Shown: piece by piece, positions 8,799-22,966 of the stretch
How positions within the stretch are numbered: the stretch's first letter is position 1
Layout: each line of letters starts with the position of its first letter
Assembly (NCBI GenBank): GCA_016125375.1
Contig: WGLU01000001.1
Span: forward strand, 372,001 to 436,000
DNA from: Pseudomonadota bacterium
GTDB lineage: Bacteria > Pseudomonadota > Alphaproteobacteria > UBA1280 > RI-95
DNA length: 64,000 bases
Direction: 5' to 3'
Position numbers and translations under genes: made by a program
The notes under the pieces: generated by a model
Seen by the model: the letters and a program-made list of their open reading frames with translations, nothing else
Database searches by the model: none
What the model was told of the DNA's origin: nothing

Positions 8799-9490
8799 CA
8801 GTCTTCCACTCCGCCTTCCCGCATGGTGTAAACAACGTCACACTTTTTGGCCAGCTCGGTATTGTGGGTAACCATCAGAACGCTCAGACCGTCTTTATCG
8901 GCCAGTTGGGTGAACAGGTTAAAGACCGCATCGGCGCTGTGGGGGTCAAGGTTGCCTGTCGGCTCATCCGCTAGCAATACGCGCGGTTTGTTCATTAATG
9001 CACGGGCAAGCGCCACACGCTGCTGCTCCCCGCCGGAGAGGTGCGCCGGGTGGTGCGCCATACGCTCGGTCAGGCCAACAGCCTCCAGCAGGCCCTCCGC
9101 CATGCGCTGGGCATCGCGGGCATTCTTGTTACCGATGAGCGCGGGCATCATCACGTTTTCCAGCGCGGTGAACTCGGCCAGCAGGTGGTGATACTGGTAC
9201 ACAAAGCCAAAGGTCTTGTTGCGCAGGTGCGCCTTTTGCGTATCGCCCAAGGGAGTAACCGACGCGCCGTCCAGCCGGACTTCACCAGCCGTGGGCTTGT
9301 CCAGCAGGCCGGCGATTTGCAGCAGCGTGCTCTTGCCGCTACCGCTCTGGCCGACAATGGCCACTTTTTTGCCCGGATGAAGGTCAAGGTTGACGTTCTT
9401 CAAGATTTCCAGCGTGCCCGACGGCTGGCGGAATGCCTTGCTGATGCCGACGAGCTGCAAAACGGGTGCTGACGGGGTCTGACTACTCAC
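8798..9490 (-). CDS. lolD: Lipoprotein-releasing ABC transporter, ATP-binding subunit
   Basis: ATPase of the LolCDE machine that extracts outer-membrane lipoproteins from the inner membrane and passes them to LolA. Visible motifs: Walker A GQSGSGKSTLLQ, ABC signature LSGGEQQRVALARAL, Walker B RVLLADEPTGNLD, and H-loop MVTHNTELA. A GTG start at 9490 is chosen because it gives a 230-residue protein beginning VSSQTPSAPVLQLVGISKAF and overlaps the lolC stop in a compact GTGAGTAG junction. The frame is open further upstream inside lolC, but that extension has no family support. Confidence 0.93.
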   Translation of the reverse strand: MSSQTPSAPVLQLVGISKAFRQPSGTLEILKNVNLDLHPGKKVAIVGQSGSGKSTLLQIAGLLDKPTAGEVRLDGASVTPLGDTQKAHLRNKTFGFVYQYHHLLAEFTALENVMMPALIGNKNARDAQRMAEGLLEAVGLTERMAHHPAHLSGGEQQRVALARALMNKPRVLLADEPTGNLDPHSADAVFNLFTQLADKDGLSVLMVTHNTELAKKCDVVYTMREGGVED

Positions 9491-13516: not shown

Positions 13517-13602
13517 CATGCCTGTTTTCCGCCCCTTTACTGGACTTATCGGTCTTGCGTGCCTAAACTTATTCATAGAAGAAGGAACAACCGGAGTTTG
13601 TG

Positions 13603-14901
13603 ATGAAACGGCGTGACATTCTGGCAGGTATGGGCGGTTTAGCCGCAGCTACGGCCTTGAGCGGCACGTCCACCACAAACGCTTGGGCCAAACCACAAAC
13701 ACCTGAGGTTGCTGTTCCGTACACCCTCCATCTGGTGGGCCCCTTGGGCAACGCCCACGTTAGCACAGGATTGCTGGGTTTTGGGACCCAGTCTATTGCC
13801 CAGCGCATCAACCTGCAAACCGGCGAGATTACCCAACACCCCTTCCCGACCGATGCCTGTCACTACCCCCTTATTTTGCCGGATGGCCGTTTGTTCGTAA
13901 CATCGCGCGGCTTTAACCGCGGGGCGTTCGTATCTGCCGATGGGCAGTCCACCAAAACCTTTGATCTGAATAAGTACGAGAACCTTAATTTTGGCGGCCA
14001 CGCCCTTTATGACAGCGAAAAGAACGTCATTTATGCATCTATGGCGCTTGCGACGGATAATCCGGACAGCTCCGGCTTTATTGGGGTATTTGATGCCGAC
14101 AAGCAGGAACTGGCACACCTGCAGCCCATGCCCAACAACAATACCCACGAGATTCTGTTCCTGCCCGGTAACGAAGAAATTGCCCTGACCGGTTACGCCG
14201 GCCTGTATTCAGAACACGGCAGCAGCCGCAAGCGCGGGTGGCTGGCTTTTCCGGCGGCGCACTCTCAGGTAACGATTGTGGACCGCAGCACCTTGCAGCC
14301 CAAACGCCATTATAAAATGGAAGAATACAAGGCAAGTCTTGGCCACATGACTGTGGACAAGGACGGCTATCTGTATCTGGATGCCTTCCAGTCCATTACC
14401 GGGCACCCCAAAAATGATGCTGACGTGCAGGAAATCCGTAAAGTTGCAGAGGAGTTCATCGGTGAGCGGACCTGGACACTGCACCCGGACGAAGGCGTGG
14501 AACTTGGCCGCGGTATGATGGTGCCGATGCCTGTGCTGCGCATCAACCCGCAGACGGGCGAGGTCAAACCCATCTGGGCAGAGGACAAGGGTTACCACCG
14601 CTATCCGCTCTCGTTCACCTATAGCGACAAGCTGGACCGGGTTTTTGTAACGCACATGCTGTCCAACAAACTGTTCATCATCACACCACCCGGCGATACG
14701 GTCGAAGTCATGGATGGCTGGGAGGATCTCGGCTTCCACAAAATCTCTGGCGCCCGTGCCGTACCGGGCACGCCATACATCGCCCTGTGCGACTTTAACT
14801 ATGGTGTTGTGCTGCTGGACGGTGCAACCCGCAAGATCGTCGCCCGATATGGCGTGCCGACCTTCGGGACAGAGCATATGACCATCCGCCCCCTTGTATA
14901 A
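13603..14901 (+). CDS. Tat-exported beta-propeller protein (DUF1513-like)
   Basis: The 432-residue protein begins MKRRDILAGMGGLAAATAL, a twin-arginine signal with cleavage expected after NAWA near residue 30, so it should be exported folded to the periplasm. The mature part has repeated strand-rich units such as LILPDGRLFVTSRG, GFIGVFDADKQEL, HEILFLPGNEEIALTGYAG and VTIVDRSTLQPKRHY. Their order recalls DUF1513 proteins, which often sit near imelysin-type iron proteins, but none is present here. Function is unknown. A GTG directly precedes the ATG, and CCGGAG is the likely ribosome-binding site. The gene ends about 107 bp before the HTH-RuBisCO gene; a link between them is only positional. Confidence 0.75.
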   Translation: MKRRDILAGMGGLAAATALSGTSTTNAWAKPQTPEVAVPYTLHLVGPLGNAHVSTGLLGFGTQSIAQRINLQTGEITQHPFPTDACHYPLILPDGRLFVTSRGFNRGAFVSADGQSTKTFDLNKYENLNFGGHALYDSEKNVIYASMALATDNPDSSGFIGVFDADKQELAHLQPMPNNNTHEILFLPGNEEIALTGYAGLYSEHGSSRKRGWLAFPAAHSQVTIVDRSTLQPKRHYKMEEYKASLGHMTVDKDGYLYLDAFQSITGHPKNDADVQEIRKVAEEFIGERTWTLHPDEGVELGRGMMVPMPVLRINPQTGEVKPIWAEDKGYHRYPLSFTYSDKLDRVFVTHMLSNKLFIITPPGDTVEVMDGWEDLGFHKISGARAVPGTPYIALCDFNYGVVLLDGATRKIVARYGVPTFGTEHMTIRPLV

Positions 14902-14958
14902 ACCGATGCGTTAATTATTTCCGATTTCAAGTCTGGTAAAACGGTTTTGTTTCACTCA

Positions 14959-14970
14959 TATTTGCAAATA
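14959..14970. promoter_or_regulatory. Perfect 12-bp palindrome, candidate operator of the HTH-RuBisCO operon
   Basis: TATTTGCAAATA is fully self-complementary and lies 38 bp upstream of the ATG at 15009, within the 107-bp gap after the preceding gene. The overlapping CATATT (14957-14962) could be a -10 box, although no good -35 is seen. XRE-family regulators usually bind short palindromes and often their own promoters, so this is a candidate autoregulatory site. The role is inferred from position and symmetry. Confidence 0.4.
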
Positions 14971-15008
14971 CGCCTTTGCGTGTTGTTGCTGATATGAAAG
15001 GAAACCGG

Positions 15009-16736
15009 ATGGATACCCACGACCCCATGCTGGAAACACTGGCCCTGAACCTGCGCCGTGCCATGGCGGAGGCGGATATGAGCGCGGCCGACCTTGCACG
15101 GGACTCGGGCGTGAGCATCGCCAGTTTGAGCCGCATCCTGTCCGGTCAGGTCAATCCAAGTGTGGGCAGCATGGCCAAGATCGCCCGCGTATTGGGCATC
15201 AGCCTCGACCAGTTGACGGGACAGCCGACCGTCCAGACCTTCAACGATAAAACCAGCAGCCGTGTGGCTGCCGATATGCGCACCGAAACCGACATCATTG
15301 CCTCCTTTGTACTGGAGGACACCCATTACAGCCCCAAAGAAGCTGCACGCCTGCTTGCCAATGCCGCCACAGGGAGCTGGGTCCACAGCTGGACCGAAAC
15401 ACTGGTCGACCACGAGCAGATTCCCCTGCCCCGCCCGGTGCTGGCCATGCAGACAGGGCCGCGCACCATTACAGTGGATGTGGCCTTCCCCCATGAGTTG
15501 GTCGAAACAGGCAGCATTGTCAGCCTGATATCCGTTATTTCAGCCGCGGTTACCAGCACAGGTGCCCGCATTGACGACATCCGCATCCCGCCGGTGCTGC
15601 TGCGTACCTTTGCCGGACCGTCCGAGGGGTTACAGGGCGTGCGTGATGCCTCCAACAAATATGGCAGGCCTTTGCTTTCCGCTACCATGCGGCCCGTTGT
15701 TGGCCTGTCGCCCAAGGTTTACGGCCGGGCGGTTTTTGAGGCACTGGGCGGTGGTATTGATATCACCTGTGACCCCACGTTGCTCCACAGCATCCCCAGT
15801 AACGACTGGCGCAGCCGGTTCCGCTATGTGTCTGACGCGCTGGAAATGGCCCGCAGCCAAAGTGGTGAAGGGAAAGTCCATGCCGTTAACATCAGTGCCC
15901 ACGATGTGGAGGAAATGTTGCGGCGGGCTGAAGAAGCCGCAATCCACAAAATAGGCGCCGTACTCGTTGACAGTGGTGCCATCGGCTGGTCTGCATTGCA
16001 GAGTGTCGCCACCTACTGCCACAGCCATGACCTGGTATTGTGCGCCATGGGCGGGCGCGTGCTGAACAATGGCCCGCTGAGTCAACAACTGGTGGCCAAA
16101 CTGCTGCGTTTTGCCGGGTGCGACGTTGTCAGCGTCGGCAGTCCTCTGCGGGGTAATGCGACAGCTCGCCGGAACATCAAAGGCATTGTGACCGCCCTGC
16201 GCGGTGAAAACTATGCCGCCCTGCCCGAAGGGCACGTCATGTACGATCAGCCGACCTGCGGCATCAAGAACGCACTGCCTGCCTGTGGCGGCGGTCACAA
16301 TGCCTGGCACCTGCCCCAATTGATTGACGCACTGGGTGATGACGTCATCCTCCAGTGCGGAGGCAGCACCATGGGTCACCCGTGGGGCAGCCAATCCGGC
16401 GCAACCGCCAACCGCACAGCTGTTGAAGCTCTGATTAAAGCACGTAACGAGGGCAGCAACCTCGCCGTTGACGGTCGCAGCATCCTGCTGGAAGCTGCCG
16501 GACACTGCGCCGAGCTGAAAGAAGCCCTGAACTACTGGCGCGAAGGGTCGTTCCTGTTTGGTGTTATTTCCGGTACGGAAGTGGATAACCTCGGCGCGGT
16601 TATCATCCGTGACCAGTTGGGGGGCAACAAAGCCAAGCGCCCTGCCAAAGGGGAGGCCGTGCTCAAAGACCTGACCACCGGACGGACCATTAAACGTCAC
16701 AAGGAACCCCCTGCAACGCCGGAGGAGGATAAATAA
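15009..16736 (+). CDS. XRE helix-turn-helix domain fused to a catalytically dead form I-like RuBisCO large subunit
   Basis: 575 residues. Residues 8-71 form an HTH_3/XRE domain (SAADLARDSGVSIASLSRIL). From about residue 92 the sequence follows the RuBisCO large subunit to its end: ATGSWVHSWTETL, DDIRIPPVLLRTFAGPSEG, NKYGRPLL, YGRAVFEALGGGIDIT, and GDDVILQCGGSTMGHPWG then ANRTAVEALIKARNEG. By hand alignment to the spinach enzyme: K175 is R228, K177 is V230, the carbamylated K201 is C254, D203 is P256, E204 is T257, H294 is M347, H327 is S375, loop-6 K334 is missing, E60 is N118. W66 (W124) and the Gly pair of the P1 phosphate site (G451-G452) remain. Carboxylation is therefore excluded; a DNA-binding sensor is my inference. 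ATG 15009 is favoured by AAAGGA six bases upstream; ATG 14994 adds five residues. A small-subunit gene follows after 2 bp. Confidence 0.92.
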   Translation: MDTHDPMLETLALNLRRAMAEADMSAADLARDSGVSIASLSRILSGQVNPSVGSMAKIARVLGISLDQLTGQPTVQTFNDKTSSRVAADMRTETDIIASFVLEDTHYSPKEAARLLANAATGSWVHSWTETLVDHEQIPLPRPVLAMQTGPRTITVDVAFPHELVETGSIVSLISVISAAVTSTGARIDDIRIPPVLLRTFAGPSEGLQGVRDASNKYGRPLLSATMRPVVGLSPKVYGRAVFEALGGGIDITCDPTLLHSIPSNDWRSRFRYVSDALEMARSQSGEGKVHAVNISAHDVEEMLRRAEEAAIHKIGAVLVDSGAIGWSALQSVATYCHSHDLVLCAMGGRVLNNGPLSQQLVAKLLRFAGCDVVSVGSPLRGNATARRNIKGIVTALRGENYAALPEGHVMYDQPTCGIKNALPACGGGHNAWHLPQLIDALGDDVILQCGGSTMGHPWGSQSGATANRTAVEALIKARNEGSNLAVDGRSILLEAAGHCAELKEALNYWREGSFLFGVISGTEVDNLGAVIIRDQLGGNKAKRPAKGEAVLKDLTTGRTIKRHKEPPATPEEDK

Positions 16737-16738
16737 CC

Positions 16739-17056
16739 ATGAACCCGCGCTTTGAGACGTTCTCGTTCCTGCCACCGCTGAGCATGACTGATGTCCGCAA
16801 ACAGGCAGACTACATGCTGGACAACGGTTTTGTGCCGGTGATTGAGTTTCTGGAGAATCCAATCGAGAGCGATCAGTACTGGAACCTGTGGCGCATCCCG
16901 ACCGACGAGGCGATGACATCCGGCTGGATTATCAAGCAGATCGAGCTGTGCGGGCGTTCGCATCCTTATGCGCACATCCGATTGAGCGGTTACGACTGCA
17001 AGCGCCGGATGAACGCGCACAGCTTTATCGTTGCGGTACCTCTTGAAGGTGCTTGA
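16739..17056 (+). CDS. RuBisCO small subunit homologue
   Basis: 105 residues. The start FETFSFLPPLSMTDVRKQAD matches the classic N-terminus of form I small subunits, followed by the core blocks YMLDNGFVPVIEFLENP, YWNLWRIPTD, IELCGRSHPYAHIRLSGYD and the final SFIVAVP. It most resembles the green-type (form IA/IB) family by eye. In active enzymes the small subunit caps the L8 core and has no catalytic residues of its own. A strong GGAGGAGG site at 16721-16728 precedes the ATG, and only 2 bp separate it from the upstream stop, so the two are cotranslated and probably form one complex. The last 32 bp overlap the 3' end of the convergent gene. Confidence 0.9.
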   Translation: MNPRFETFSFLPPLSMTDVRKQADYMLDNGFVPVIEFLENPIESDQYWNLWRIPTDEAMTSGWIIKQIELCGRSHPYAHIRLSGYDCKRRMNAHSFIVAVPLEGA

Positions 17057-17795
17057 GAACTTCCACCTTCTCGTCCGGCGTTAAATCGCCGGGTCGGGTG
17101 TTTTCGTAGGTCTTCTGCACATCTGTAGGCAGCCGGCTTTTCAGGAATAAAGCCCGTACGTCGTCCCCCAGTGCGCGCTGGAGATTCTTAGGCGGCATAT
17201 CGTAAATGACCTTGTCACCGTTACGGATAGCCAGCACCTTGGTTGTGCCATCCACCCCTTCATAAGCCAGCGGAAAGCCCAGCATGTTACCCAGTGCGCG
17301 CGGCACGTCGTAATAGGTACAGGGCTGGGTGCTGATGTCCGATGTCGCCAGCAGGCCGGTCGCCAGATTCAATCGGCTGATGTCCGTCATGTTAAAGTTC
17401 AATGCCTTGGCCAATTCGGCGCTGGTAAACAGCTGGCCACAGGGTTTGCGGTTGACCAGCAGACGCCAGTTGACCGTTTTGTAGCCGTTCAGAATGGGGC
17501 CCTCGCCTATTTTCTCCACCCGAACTTCCGGCGCATGGGCATCCAGCAATGGCGATACACGGACAAATCCTGTCACATCCGGTATGGCCGCAAACAGGAC
17601 ACCTTTTTTGCTATAGGTCAGTTCAGCCCCCGTGGGCGCATCGATGGTGCGGGCATTGCCATAGATATCCAGCGCCAACGTCATCGACGCGTCATTTTGG
17701 GCAAAATCGACCATCACCTGTGCGTGAGCGGGCAGCGAGAAGGCTAAAAAACAGGCGCCTAAACGGCATATGGTAAAAAAAGACTGCATACGCAC
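17025..17795 (-). CDS. Secreted hypothetical protein, 256 aa
   Basis: I do not recognise the family. A Sec signal peptide is clear (MRMQSFFTICRLGACFLAFSL, ending PAHA near residue 25), so the mature protein is periplasmic or exported. The mature part has beta-rich segments and two cysteines (RKPCGQL and TQPCTYY) that could form a disulfide. Near the C-terminus PGDLTPDEKVEVLKHLQEVP looks helical. It converges on the RuBisCO small-subunit homologue with a 32-bp overlap of the 3' ends, and it is divergent from efp. ATG 17789 is an equally possible start. Confidence 0.75.
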   Translation of the reverse strand: MRMQSFFTICRLGACFLAFSLPAHAQVMVDFAQNDASMTLALDIYGNARTIDAPTGAELTYSKKGVLFAAIPDVTGFVRVSPLLDAHAPEVRVEKIGEGPILNGYKTVNWRLLVNRKPCGQLFTSAELAKALNFNMTDISRLNLATGLLATSDISTQPCTYYDVPRALGNMLGFPLAYEGVDGTTKVLAIRNGDKVIYDMPPKNLQRALGDDVRALFLKSRLPTDVQKTYENTRPGDLTPDEKVEVLKHLQEVPQR

Positions 17796-19558: not shown

Positions 19559-22500
19559 ATGCAGCAGGGCCAACAAGAACCGCTAAAGCGGCACACAATC
19601 CTCCGGGGCTTTATAAGCGCCGCGCTTTTTTGTGTGGTCATGCTGTGCGCAGCCCTGTTTCCTGTTACTGATGCCCCTGCCCAGGACGGTCCCTCCGACT
19701 CTATTACACTGGACTTTGAGGATGTGGATATCCGCAGCCTCATTCGCTACATGGCCGAGGCAACGGGTCGTAATTTCATTGTCGACAATCAACTGAGCGG
19801 CAAGGTGACCATCGTCAACCCGACGCCCCTTTCCACCGCTGAAGCCTTTGAGATTTTCGAGAGCCTGCTGAACGGTGCCGGGTACGCAATTGTCCCCTCC
19901 GGCAGCGTTGACCGGATTGTGCCTCTGTCCGAGGTCTCTAAGGAGCCGGTAGAGGTACTTTCTTCCGGCGAGCGGACAAACCGCCCCGCCGCCTTTGTTA
20001 CTAAAAACATCAAGCTGAAATTCGTACACGTAAACTCCGTCGTGCCGATTATCCGCCCGCTGCTTTCCAAAACAGCAACACTGGGCGCGTTTGTACCGGG
20101 CAACATGCTGATTGTGACCGAAACATTCGGTAATATTGAGCGGATAGAAAATGTACTCCGTCAGCTGGATACCGCCAGCGGTGCAGGCGCCATCAAGCTG
20201 ATTCCGCTCCAGTATGCAGATGCCACGCAGGTTGCAGCCATCCTTGAGCGTATTTACGACGAAGAAGCACGCACAAATACGACCGACAGTAACAGCGCCG
20301 CCTCGCGCAAGGTACAAATCATCCCCGAAGCCGCTACAAACACCCTGATTGTGGTCGCTGATGCAGCTGAAATGCGCCAGATTGAAAAGCTGGTCGATAA
20401 TCTGGATGTGGACGGCAATGACAAGGTCAAATCCCTCGAAATCGTCTATCTGAAAAATGCGGACGCCCCTGATTTGGCCGACGTTATTAACAAGATGCTC
20501 GAGAAGACCGAAGACGAGAAAGACAAAACCAATACAGATGCCAACGGCGAGAGCAAAACACAGACCGCTCTTAAAATCCTGAGCACCTTCAAGGGCCCTG
20601 TATCCGTTGTCGCGGACAAGAGCACCAACGCACTGCTGTTGTCGGCCGAGCCAGAAGACATGATTGTGCTGAAAGATGTGATCAACAAGCTGGATATCCG
20701 CCGTCTGCAGGTTTATGTGGAAGCGCTGGTGATGGAGGTTTCCTCCCAGATTGCCGACCAGTTCGGGGTTGAATGGCGTACCGCTTCCAACTTTGGCAGC
20801 AACTCCGGCATCGTGCCGTTTGGCGGTTCGACCTTTGGTAACGGCATTAACGCCTTGTCCACCAACCCGCTTAACCTGCCGACAGGTTTTTCGTTCGGTC
20901 TGGCAGGCTCCAACATTACCTTCCGCGGTCAGGAATTCGCCAACATCGGTATGCTGGTCCGTGCGCTTAAATCCGACACCAACATCAACATCCTGTCCAC
21001 ACCGCAACTGCTGACGCTGGATAATCAGGAAGCTGAAATCATCGTTGGTGACAACGTACCATTTGTAACAGGCACCTTCTCCAACGATGCCGGTGGTGAG
21101 AACCCATTCCAGACCATCGAACGTAAAGACATTGGTCTGACTCTGCGGATGACGCCGCAGATTTCCGAAAACGGTTTCATCCGTATGGATATTTATCAGG
21201 AATTCTCGTCCGTGGCGGAAAACCGCGGCGAAGCTGCCGACCTTGTCACCCGTAAGCGTTCCATCAAAACCGCTGTGGTTGTGCCCGACCAGCAGATGAT
21301 TGTTCTGGGCGGCCTTATCCGTGACGATGTGAACGAAACCAACCAGCAGATCCCCTGTCTGGCGGGTATCTTTGGTGCCGGCGAGCTGTTCAAAAACACC
21401 AGTGTCACCAATCAGAAGACCAACCTGATGGTGTTCATCAAACCCCATATCATCAACACTTATGGGGATATCGAAGCGATTACGCACAGCAAGTACACCC
21501 AGATCCGCGAATACCAGAAAGCCAAACGCCGCCCCGGCAGCGTGATGGTGGAGCGCATTACGCCCCAAGAGGCCGAAATCGTGCCCGACTATCTGCGCGA
21601 CGGCAAGCGCGACTCCTACGTCAGCGGCCGTGCCCGCAACGGTATTGCGCCTGTGCAAACGACAATCCAGCAGCCGGAAGCGACTCCGGTACAAACCGCG
21701 CCGACAGCTGATCCTATCGAGCTGAAAAAGCCAGCGGCTATTGCCACACCGGAAGAGGAGGAAGCACCGCGCGCTGCCCCTTTAGCCGTTCCACAACCGG
21801 GCCAGAAGGCCTCGGTGACGCCCTCTGAGCCGATAGCTCTCAAACGCCCGGCGGCTACTGTTCGTCAGCCTGCTGTTGACATTGAGCCGGAAGAAGAACC
21901 CGTTGCCCCTGCTCCGGCACCGCAGACAGAACTGACACCGGTTACCGACAGCCCGATGGCGCTTGCACGCCCTGCCGCCAAGCCAGCACCTGTAGAAGAA
22001 AAAGAGCCTGTCGCTCCGGTTCCAACACCGCAACCTGTTGAAGAACCTGCAAGCCCGCTTACTCTGACGCGCCCTGCGGCTAAACTGGAGCCTGTTGCGC
22101 CCGTACCGCAGCCCAAGGCACCGTCGGACCCGATTGCGCTCAAACCTGTAGCTGCACCCAAACCCGCGCCCGTTGTCGTGCCGGAAGTTGTGGAAGATGT
22201 GCCCGCACCTGTTGTAGCAGCATCTCAAGACACCTCGCCAGCGCCGAGCAATCCGCTTGATTCGGTTGCGCTCAAGCGCCCGCCAGAGGATACCTCGATT
22301 CACCTGCAGGACCCGTCTGCCCCGACGGAGCCCCTGCCTGCGCTTGACCTGGAAAAACCGGCCAAGCCTATGCCGAACAGCCTGAAAGAACCCATCGTCC
22401 CCATGACGCTGGCACCTAAGACAGCTGAAACGGCTCCCCCTGCCAAACCATTGAGCCTGTCCAAACCGGTTGCGCCAAAACCGCTGGCATTGAAATCGCC

Positions 22501-22966
22501 TAAAAAGCCTGAGCCGGTGATTACGGAAGAAGCCAATGAAGAGGCCCCGACCCGTCTGGCTGCTGTTGCAACCCCCGATACCCATACGGATGAGGGTGAA
22601 CTGGCGCCAACAGGTACCCTGCCCCAGCCCGAATGGTCACCGGATGACCTGAGCTTCCCGCTGCCTGTCGCCTATGTTGGCTTTGACGGGGACAGCATCC
22701 TGATGAACAGCTACTACCGCGGTACGCTGGACAGCGTTGCCAGCCAGTTGCAAGGTAAACCGCGCCTGATGCTGGAAGTACGCGGCTACGCCCCCTACGA
22801 TAAAGGTGCCGAAGGCCGCAAGCGCGCCCTCGCCCGTGCAGTTGCTGTGCGTAACTACCTGATTGCCGCAGGCCTGCCCGGCGGCCAGATCGAAACCTAT
22901 GCCTCGCTCAGTGACGATGCCGATATGCTGAAGGCTAACCGGGTTGATGTGCTGAGGGCCCGCTGA
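19559..22966 (+). CDS. gspD: Type II secretion secretin GspD with Pro-rich tail and C-terminal OmpA-like domain
   Basis: Outer-membrane channel of the T2SS, 1135 residues against about 650-750 for usual GspD. Signal peptide ends near APAQ (42). N0-N3 domains follow (ITLDFEDVDIRSLIRYMAEA onward), then the secretin core with NILSTPQLLTLDNQEAEI, GDNVPFVTGTF and VVVPDQQMIVLGGLIRDD, ending near residue 670. Residues 690-1010 are Pro/Ala rich with a recurring PIALKRPAA-like motif. From about residue 1030 the sequence LMLEVRGYAPYDKG, RALARAVAVRNYL and KANRVDVL resembles OmpA/MotB domains. A secretin tethered to peptidoglycan by its own tail is inferred. No clear Shine-Dalgarno sequence is seen. gspE follows with a 1-bp overlap. 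Confidence 0.92.
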   Translation: MQQGQQEPLKRHTILRGFISAALFCVVMLCAALFPVTDAPAQDGPSDSITLDFEDVDIRSLIRYMAEATGRNFIVDNQLSGKVTIVNPTPLSTAEAFEIFESLLNGAGYAIVPSGSVDRIVPLSEVSKEPVEVLSSGERTNRPAAFVTKNIKLKFVHVNSVVPIIRPLLSKTATLGAFVPGNMLIVTETFGNIERIENVLRQLDTASGAGAIKLIPLQYADATQVAAILERIYDEEARTNTTDSNSAASRKVQIIPEAATNTLIVVADAAEMRQIEKLVDNLDVDGNDKVKSLEIVYLKNADAPDLADVINKMLEKTEDEKDKTNTDANGESKTQTALKILSTFKGPVSVVADKSTNALLLSAEPEDMIVLKDVINKLDIRRLQVYVEALVMEVSSQIADQFGVEWRTASNFGSNSGIVPFGGSTFGNGINALSTNPLNLPTGFSFGLAGSNITFRGQEFANIGMLVRALKSDTNINILSTPQLLTLDNQEAEIIVGDNVPFVTGTFSNDAGGENPFQTIERKDIGLTLRMTPQISENGFIRMDIYQEFSSVAENRGEAADLVTRKRSIKTAVVVPDQQMIVLGGLIRDDVNETNQQIPCLAGIFGAGELFKNTSVTNQKTNLMVFIKPHIINTYGDIEAITHSKYTQIREYQKAKRRPGSVMVERITPQEAEIVPDYLRDGKRDSYVSGRARNGIAPVQTTIQQPEATPVQTAPTADPIELKKPAAIATPEEEEAPRAAPLAVPQPGQKASVTPSEPIALKRPAATVRQPAVDIEPEEEPVAPAPAPQTELTPVTDSPMALARPAAKPAPVEEKEPVAPVPTPQPVEEPASPLTLTRPAAKLEPVAPVPQPKAPSDPIALKPVAAPKPAPVVVPEVVEDVPAPVVAASQDTSPAPSNPLDSVALKRPPEDTSIHLQDPSAPTEPLPALDLEKPAKPMPNSLKEPIVPMTLAPKTAETAPPAKPLSLSKPVAPKPLALKSPKKPEPVITEEANEEAPTRLAAVATPDTHTDEGELAPTGTLPQPEWSPDDLSFPLPVAYVGFDGDSILMNSYYRGTLDSVASQLQGKPRLMLEVRGYAPYDKGAEGRKRALARAVAVRNYLIAAGLPGGQIETYASLSDDADMLKANRVDVLRAR
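21710..22288 (+). repeat. Repeated P-x-x-L-x-(K/R)-P-A-A motif inside gspD
   Basis: Six degenerate copies of a ten-residue motif: DPIELKKPAA (residue 718), EPIALKRPAA (757), SPMALARPAA (798), SPLTLTRPAA (832), DPIALKPVAA (857), DSVALKRPPE (901). Spacing is 25-44 residues, filled with Pro/Glu/Ala-rich linker. Further shorter echoes follow to about residue 990. Confidence 0.8.

Follow-up and report, generated by a model that had tools for sequence, protein, structure and literature searches.

We describe a gene in which a DNA-binding helix-turn-helix (HTH) domain is joined to a complete RuBisCO large subunit that has lost its catalytic residues, and we consider its product to be probably a RuBisCO-derived, autoregulating one-component transcription factor. 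Its former active-site pocket would most likely serve to bind a small metabolite, anionic or phosphorylated. The gene lies in a 64-kb stretch of alphaproteobacterial DNA, referred to here as the window, and all coordinates follow the numbering within it. A first-pass annotation of this DNA had proposed that the RuBisCO fold was turned into a transcription factor, and the computational analysis supports that proposal with 18 fusions, the loss of the catalytic residues, a gene for a small-subunit partner, purifying selection and a conserved operator-like palindrome at the promoter.

The fusion protein of 575 amino acids is encoded by a single unbroken open reading frame at positions 15009-16736 of the forward strand, and its architecture is evident from Pfam, PDB sequence matches, AlphaFold and Foldseek, and 17 homologous fusions. 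At the N-terminus stands an XRE/HTH_3 domain (residues 15-69, 15051-15215, forward strand; PF01381, E = 3.5e-12, 46.6 bits against a curated cut-off of 23), which is further supported by its dN/dS and by the helices that the AlphaFold model places at residues 6-21, 26-33, 37-44, 52-62 and 66-70; the identity of this domain agrees with the first-pass annotation, but its boundaries, given there as residues 8-71, do not. A flexible linker follows (residues 74-91, 15228-15281, forward strand), predicted to be disordered with a pLDDT below 50. The remainder consists of the RuBisCO large-subunit N-terminal domain (residues 92-195, 15282-15593, forward strand; PF02788, RuBisCO_large_N, E = 2.1e-6), in which W124 corresponds to spinach W66, and of the large-subunit barrel with its catalytic residues replaced (residues 209-510, 15633-16538, forward strand; PF00016, RuBisCO_large, E = 2.5e-57). 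Against PDB sequences, residues 93-521 score best with form I large subunits and with reconstructions of their ancestors (E = 2.5e-87), and the AlphaFold model, with a mean pLDDT of 82, shows an HTH bundle, a linker and a RuBisCO fold for which, among the Foldseek matches listed, all are form I-type RbcL (best E = 9e-39, TM-score 0.88 on the target). The form I large-subunit fold is present over its full length by Pfam, phmmer, AlphaFold and Foldseek, which bears out the earlier description of an HTH fused to a full-length form I-like large subunit with RuBisCO blocks running from about residue 92 to the end. This fusion is the sole RuBisCO_large gene of the window's genome.

Searching for proteins that combine HTH_3 with RuBisCO_large returned homologues with the same fusion in 17 further uncultured genomes, giving 18 distinct fusions with that of the window. 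Seven fusion-bearing genomes came from a class-wide scan. When the diagnostic core was aligned and used to scan GTDB contigs, 17 loci emerged, six of them in genomes already found class-wide; an earlier contig scan based on a single protein gave no match, its patterns probably being too specific, and a sampled phylum-wide scan gave no additional strong match. The carriers belong to an uncultured, small-genome group of alphaproteobacteria, and the family members other than the window come from metagenome assemblies. As called, the fusions are mostly 532-602 amino acids long (one frame of 712 has an over-extended start), and the 17 relatives are 43-64% identical to the window protein; ordinary form I enzymes align only from about residue 92, mostly with 35-40% identity in the class-wide scan. 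Most relatives are labelled Alphaproteobacteria or Proteobacteria. Two members, L065 and L071, come from assemblies labelled Pseudomonadaceae and Magnetococcales; their genes group with alphaproteobacterial MAGs, and the labels are probably wrong.

In a phylogenetic tree of fusion, form I and form IV-like sequences, the 18 fusions make up one clade (100/100) that falls with form I rather than with form IV (98/99). Form I is its nearest neighbour; the stem is long, at 1.85 changes per site, the outgroups are few, and the deeper tree is weakly sampled. The fusions do not branch with form IV, and the form IV-like sequences L007-L009 from the same class differ from them in retaining the K-x-D-E motif and in falling outside the group of form I plus the fusion family.

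To compare the active sites, we aligned the family with the spinach enzyme and 16 form I enzymes whose catalytic residues are intact; pocket positions follow the established spinach numbering rather than a ligand complex. The eight catalytic residues reported lost in the first-pass annotation are indeed lost in all 18 members, and one of its assignments changes: the H294 position is held by G349 rather than M347, with the adjacent R295 kept as R350. The loop-6 residue K334, described as missing, is lost, with G382 at its position. In the window protein, K175 is replaced by R228 (15690-15692, forward strand), an arginine in 18/18, and K177 by V230, a position occupied by M, V, I or L across the family. 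The metal site K201-D202-D203-E204 reads C254-D255-P256-T257 (15768-15779, forward strand), K201 being A, C or V in the family, D203 proline and E204 threonine in 17 of the 18 each, so that the metal ligands for enolase-type chemistry are not retained. H294 has become G, S, A, T or N, while H327 and loop 6 with K334 are replaced by the stretch from S375 to G382 (SVGSPLRG, 16131-16154, forward strand), where S375, in place of H327, and S378-P379-L380 are invariant, R381 occurs in 15/18 and the K334 position holds G or E. Two further residues, E60 and N123, have also been lost. As far as sequence tells, the members of the fusion family are not carboxylases.

Much of the ligand site is nevertheless intact or newly fixed. 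T173, R295, G380, G381, Q401 and G403 are kept in 18/18 and W66 in 17/18, so that the first phosphate site still has W66, G381 and G403, and the second still has R295; the motif QCGG (residues 449-452, 16353-16364, forward strand) carries the first phosphate-site glycines G403 and G404 (the latter in 15/18), in keeping with the earlier observation that W124 and the glycine pair 451-452 remain. The newly fixed residues comprise R228, S375, S378-P379-L380, C450 and GGGHN at 427-431 (16287-16301, forward strand), invariant in 18/18 and replacing SGGIH 379-383. Mean entropy is 0.60 bits in the former pocket against 1.27 bits in the rest of the protein, a value as low as which was reached in 0 of 20,000 permutations, and most of the 20 positions conserved within the family and within the enzymes but different between them lie in or beside the active site. 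Judged from the alignment, this is the pattern of a binding site with new specificity, not of decay. The pocket, rebuilt yet strongly conserved, retains parts of both phosphate sites, and the ligand it most likely takes would be small and anionic or phosphorylated. Sensing of a ligand by the re-specified pocket appears likely, with the conservation of the pocket as indirect support.

The gene that follows, at 16739-17056 on the forward strand, encodes a RuBisCO small subunit (RbcS-like) of 105 amino acids and begins 2 bp past the fusion stop codon (PF00101, E = 1.1e-24; PDB, E = 8.7e-22); its AlphaFold model has a pLDDT of 85 and its Foldseek matches are RbcS. A terminator-like hairpin at 17073-17094 (forward strand) stands after this two-gene operon, identified by a consensus scan that found three against 2.1 expected. 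Downstream small-subunit genes occur in 16/18 family members (15 of the 17 outside the window), and in 13 of these 16 the start lies -8 to +29 nt from the fusion stop. In L064 a deaminase-like gene (9005-9489) and in L063 an unrelated small membrane-protein-like frame (2170-2726) lie between the two genes. The two members without a small subunit, L070 and L071, form a pair nested within the family tree with weak support, which makes loss of the small subunit likelier than primitive absence; their existence also means that the role of the fusion in these two, whatever it may be, does not depend on a small subunit. Where dN/dS could be computed, it ranged from 0.065 to 0.11 in the RuBisCO large-subunit part and from 0.13 to 0.26 in the HTH, and the small subunit gave 0.15, values by which the family is under purifying selection.

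The neighbourhood is partly syntenic in several members: proS precedes the fusion, and efp and an inositol-monophosphatase-like gene follow it. This shared gene order is a sign of vertical descent. A mobile-element or phage origin was rejected, as viral contigs and phage records contained no related sequence and the plasmid matches listed were of the ordinary RuBisCO type only. Between the rbcS-like gene and efp, an exported-looking protein with no Pfam or NCBIfam match is encoded at 17025-17795 (reverse strand) and recurs in the corresponding neighbourhood of L056, L057, L070 and L071. Just 5' of the fusion, 13600-14901 (forward strand) encodes a DUF1513-like protein of 433 amino acids that may carry a signal of the twin-arginine type (MMKRRDILAGMGG), and further along, 19559-22966 (forward strand) encodes a single GspD-like secretin of 1135 amino acids that has both an extended Pro/Ala-rich region and, at its C-terminus, an OmpA domain.

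The 200 bp upstream of the 18 fusion genes were read with a symmetric motif model, which returned the palindrome TTnCATATATGnAA, and this operator-like site occurs less than 150 bp upstream of every fusion gene (18/18, by sequence). In a leave-one-out analysis the upstream palindrome was the best site of the entire 5.6-64 kb locus in all 18 cases, with one tie. The motif likelihood was 140.0 with data-derived seeds, compared with 27.5 ± 3.3 (maximum 34.5) in 22 control sets made of upstream regions of other open frames in the same loci; the 18 sequences are related, so that these statistics do not amount to 18 fully independent observations, and the palindrome was first noticed by eye, which the leave-one-out and data-seeded controls offset only partly. 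In the window, the main candidate operator TTGCTGATATGAAA lies at 14986-14999, 23 bp before the ATG, scores 16.4 in the leave-one-out PWM and is the best site of the 64 kb, and a second, weaker copy, ACTCATATTTGCAA, lies at 14954-14967, 55 bp before the ATG (PWM 9.8 bits); both deviate from the consensus, the better one by two mismatches. Two copies are exactly 21 bp apart in L056, L061, L062 and L063, and many other family members also have two.

From these features we infer DNA binding, repression, an assembly state and a ligand for the fusion along the following lines. An XRE helix-turn-helix on a flexible linker would have been joined to a form I large subunit that abandoned carboxylation and probably continues to form a complex with the small subunit. 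Pairs of HTH domains would bind the palindrome before the gene, probably repressing the fusion-rbcS operon; the main site overlaps the likely ribosome binding site (AAAGGAAA, 14997-15004, forward strand, read from sequence), so that protein bound at 14986-14999 would block expression. A small anionic or phosphorylated metabolite in the rebuilt pocket would then alter DNA binding.

How far such regulation extends bears on the main rival reading, in which the protein is a non-catalytic RuBisCO-like complex with another main job, such as metabolite binding, buffering or delivery, or scaffolding, and the HTH only holds its own level constant. In G003 and G005 the fusion promoter holds the one exact copy of the motif in the genome, and allowing up to two mismatches gives no more sites than a reversed control pattern does. 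Across seven genomes no shared regulon target was found beyond the fusion's own promoter, the only place where the operator was located with confidence: other close matches lie mostly inside genes, and a few are near unrelated gene starts. One of the matches, TTGCATATATGGGA in L090 (3603-3616; G000 contig 5, 73102), stands 23 bp before a 131-amino-acid XRE gene, with another regulator-like frame on its other side, and is perhaps the operator of that XRE regulator itself. Because no regulon was seen beyond the own promoter, a pure self-regulator with its main job elsewhere is conceivable, and the retention of a small subunit, needless for a simple DNA-binding protein, also speaks for it. On the other hand, a small separate XRE repressor could hold the level constant without any fusion, and a pocket conserved above the rest of the protein would be expected in a sensor no less than in a carrier. 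We regard this rival as unlikely.

The retained small subunit raises the question of assembly. Form I RuBisCO is built from RbcL and RbcS as L8S8, and the large and small subunits encoded here would likewise form a multimer that brings several HTH domains together; the spacing of the tandem sites, about two helical turns, suits cooperative binding by such a multimer. Fusion and small subunit are probably hetero-oligomeric, judging by their genes. An assembly that presents as many as eight HTH domains agrees with the co-encoded small subunits and the 21-bp tandem operators, which go no further than that. A hexadecameric (L8S8-like) metabolite-sensing transcription factor, in which the whole RuBisCO architecture is put to new use and at most eight HTH domains bridge tandem operators, is a tentative proposal that we would hold to be doubtful. 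The same subunit assembly and operator spacing would also suit a RuBisCO part that is a mere oligomerisation scaffold, grouping the HTH domains and binding no ligand. A scaffold should conserve its interfaces, whereas here it is the pocket that has acquired new, fixed residues and that varies less than the rest, which makes this reading improbable.

Strong pocket conservation, with the new invariant polar residues R228, S375, H430 and N431, could also be expected of a trigger enzyme that carries out a new, metal-independent reaction and represses its own gene. Metal-binding residues serve enolisation in the known reactions of the RuBisCO superfamily, and in the fusions they have become A/C/V, P and T, whereas form IV-like proteins elsewhere in the class keep K-x-D-E. 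Nor does the genomic context offer a pathway: no pathway neighbours were found, the flanks being mostly housekeeping genes that suggest no ligand. A trigger enzyme is accordingly a very improbable reading. Phosphoribulokinase (PRK, PF00485) was absent from 10/10 genomes searched, including seven carriers, with the control positive in 11/14, and a hidden Calvin cycle in the carriers was rejected as far as PRK goes. Ribose-1,5-bisphosphate isomerase of the AMP pathway (TIGR00511) was absent from the seven carriers searched, which speaks against RuBP from that pathway, so that neither of these two known sources of RuBP was found in the carriers searched. An artefact, whether a decaying RuBisCO joined to an HTH by a frameshift or a chimeric assembly, found no support and was rejected, since the same architecture recurs in 17 other genomes with dN/dS well below 1 and a conserved operator. 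Of the outcomes named in the first-pass annotation as refuting its proposal, those open to computational checking did not occur.

The regulator reading, which we prefer, has precedents in kind. BzdR of Azoarcus consists of an N-terminal XRE HTH, a linker and a shikimate-kinase-like effector domain, and responds to benzoyl-CoA (PMC3602430). By analogy of architecture it is the closest precedent for the fusion, both having an XRE HTH at the N-terminus followed by a linker and an enzyme-derived effector domain; it differs in that the effector domain of the fusion is RuBisCO, with a separately encoded small-subunit partner. Residues 3-78 of the fusion resemble NCBIfam NF006015, an anaerobic benzoate catabolism regulator (E = 5.7e-8, below its cut-off), and the shikimate-kinase-like C-terminal domain of the BzdR family is absent, the C-terminal part being RuBisCO by Pfam. 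Other one-component regulators with enzyme-derived sensor domains, such as MocR/PdxR, NrtR and the ROK repressors, likewise combine an enzyme fold with an HTH, but we know of none that uses the RuBisCO fold.

With form I RuBisCO the fusion shares the full-length large-subunit fold, the downstream small-subunit gene and the nearest position in the tree, and it differs in its mostly 35-40% identity, the loss of the eight catalytic residues, the HTH and the lack of PRK in the carriers tested. Published accounts present form IV RuBisCO-like proteins as enzymes that metabolise sulfur compounds or break down sugars (PMC9833052, PMC5575542). These proteins (MtnW, IV-Photo and others) resemble the fusion in having a RuBisCO fold without carboxylase function. 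To our knowledge, none of them has a small subunit or an HTH, and the characterised members of the RuBisCO superfamily are enzymes. No HTH-RuBisCO protein was found described in the open literature, a search that left subscription papers and bioRxiv mostly outside its reach, which agrees with the statement of the first-pass annotation that none was known. The kind of protein is familiar; its novelty lies in the fold, in the small subunit it has kept and in the probable hetero-oligomer.

Few enzymes have been studied as much as RuBisCO, and if the L8S8-like reading is true, this would be the first regulator described in its family. In this family a RuBisCO fold that lacks its catalytic residues persists, together with a small subunit, under strong selection. 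The fusions would offer a direct case of evolution from enzyme to regulator, a chance to test the role of the small subunit in the absence of catalysis and perhaps a ready-made scaffold for biosensors. Surveys of RuBisCO that ignore the active site could miscount the carriers of this family as carbon fixers.
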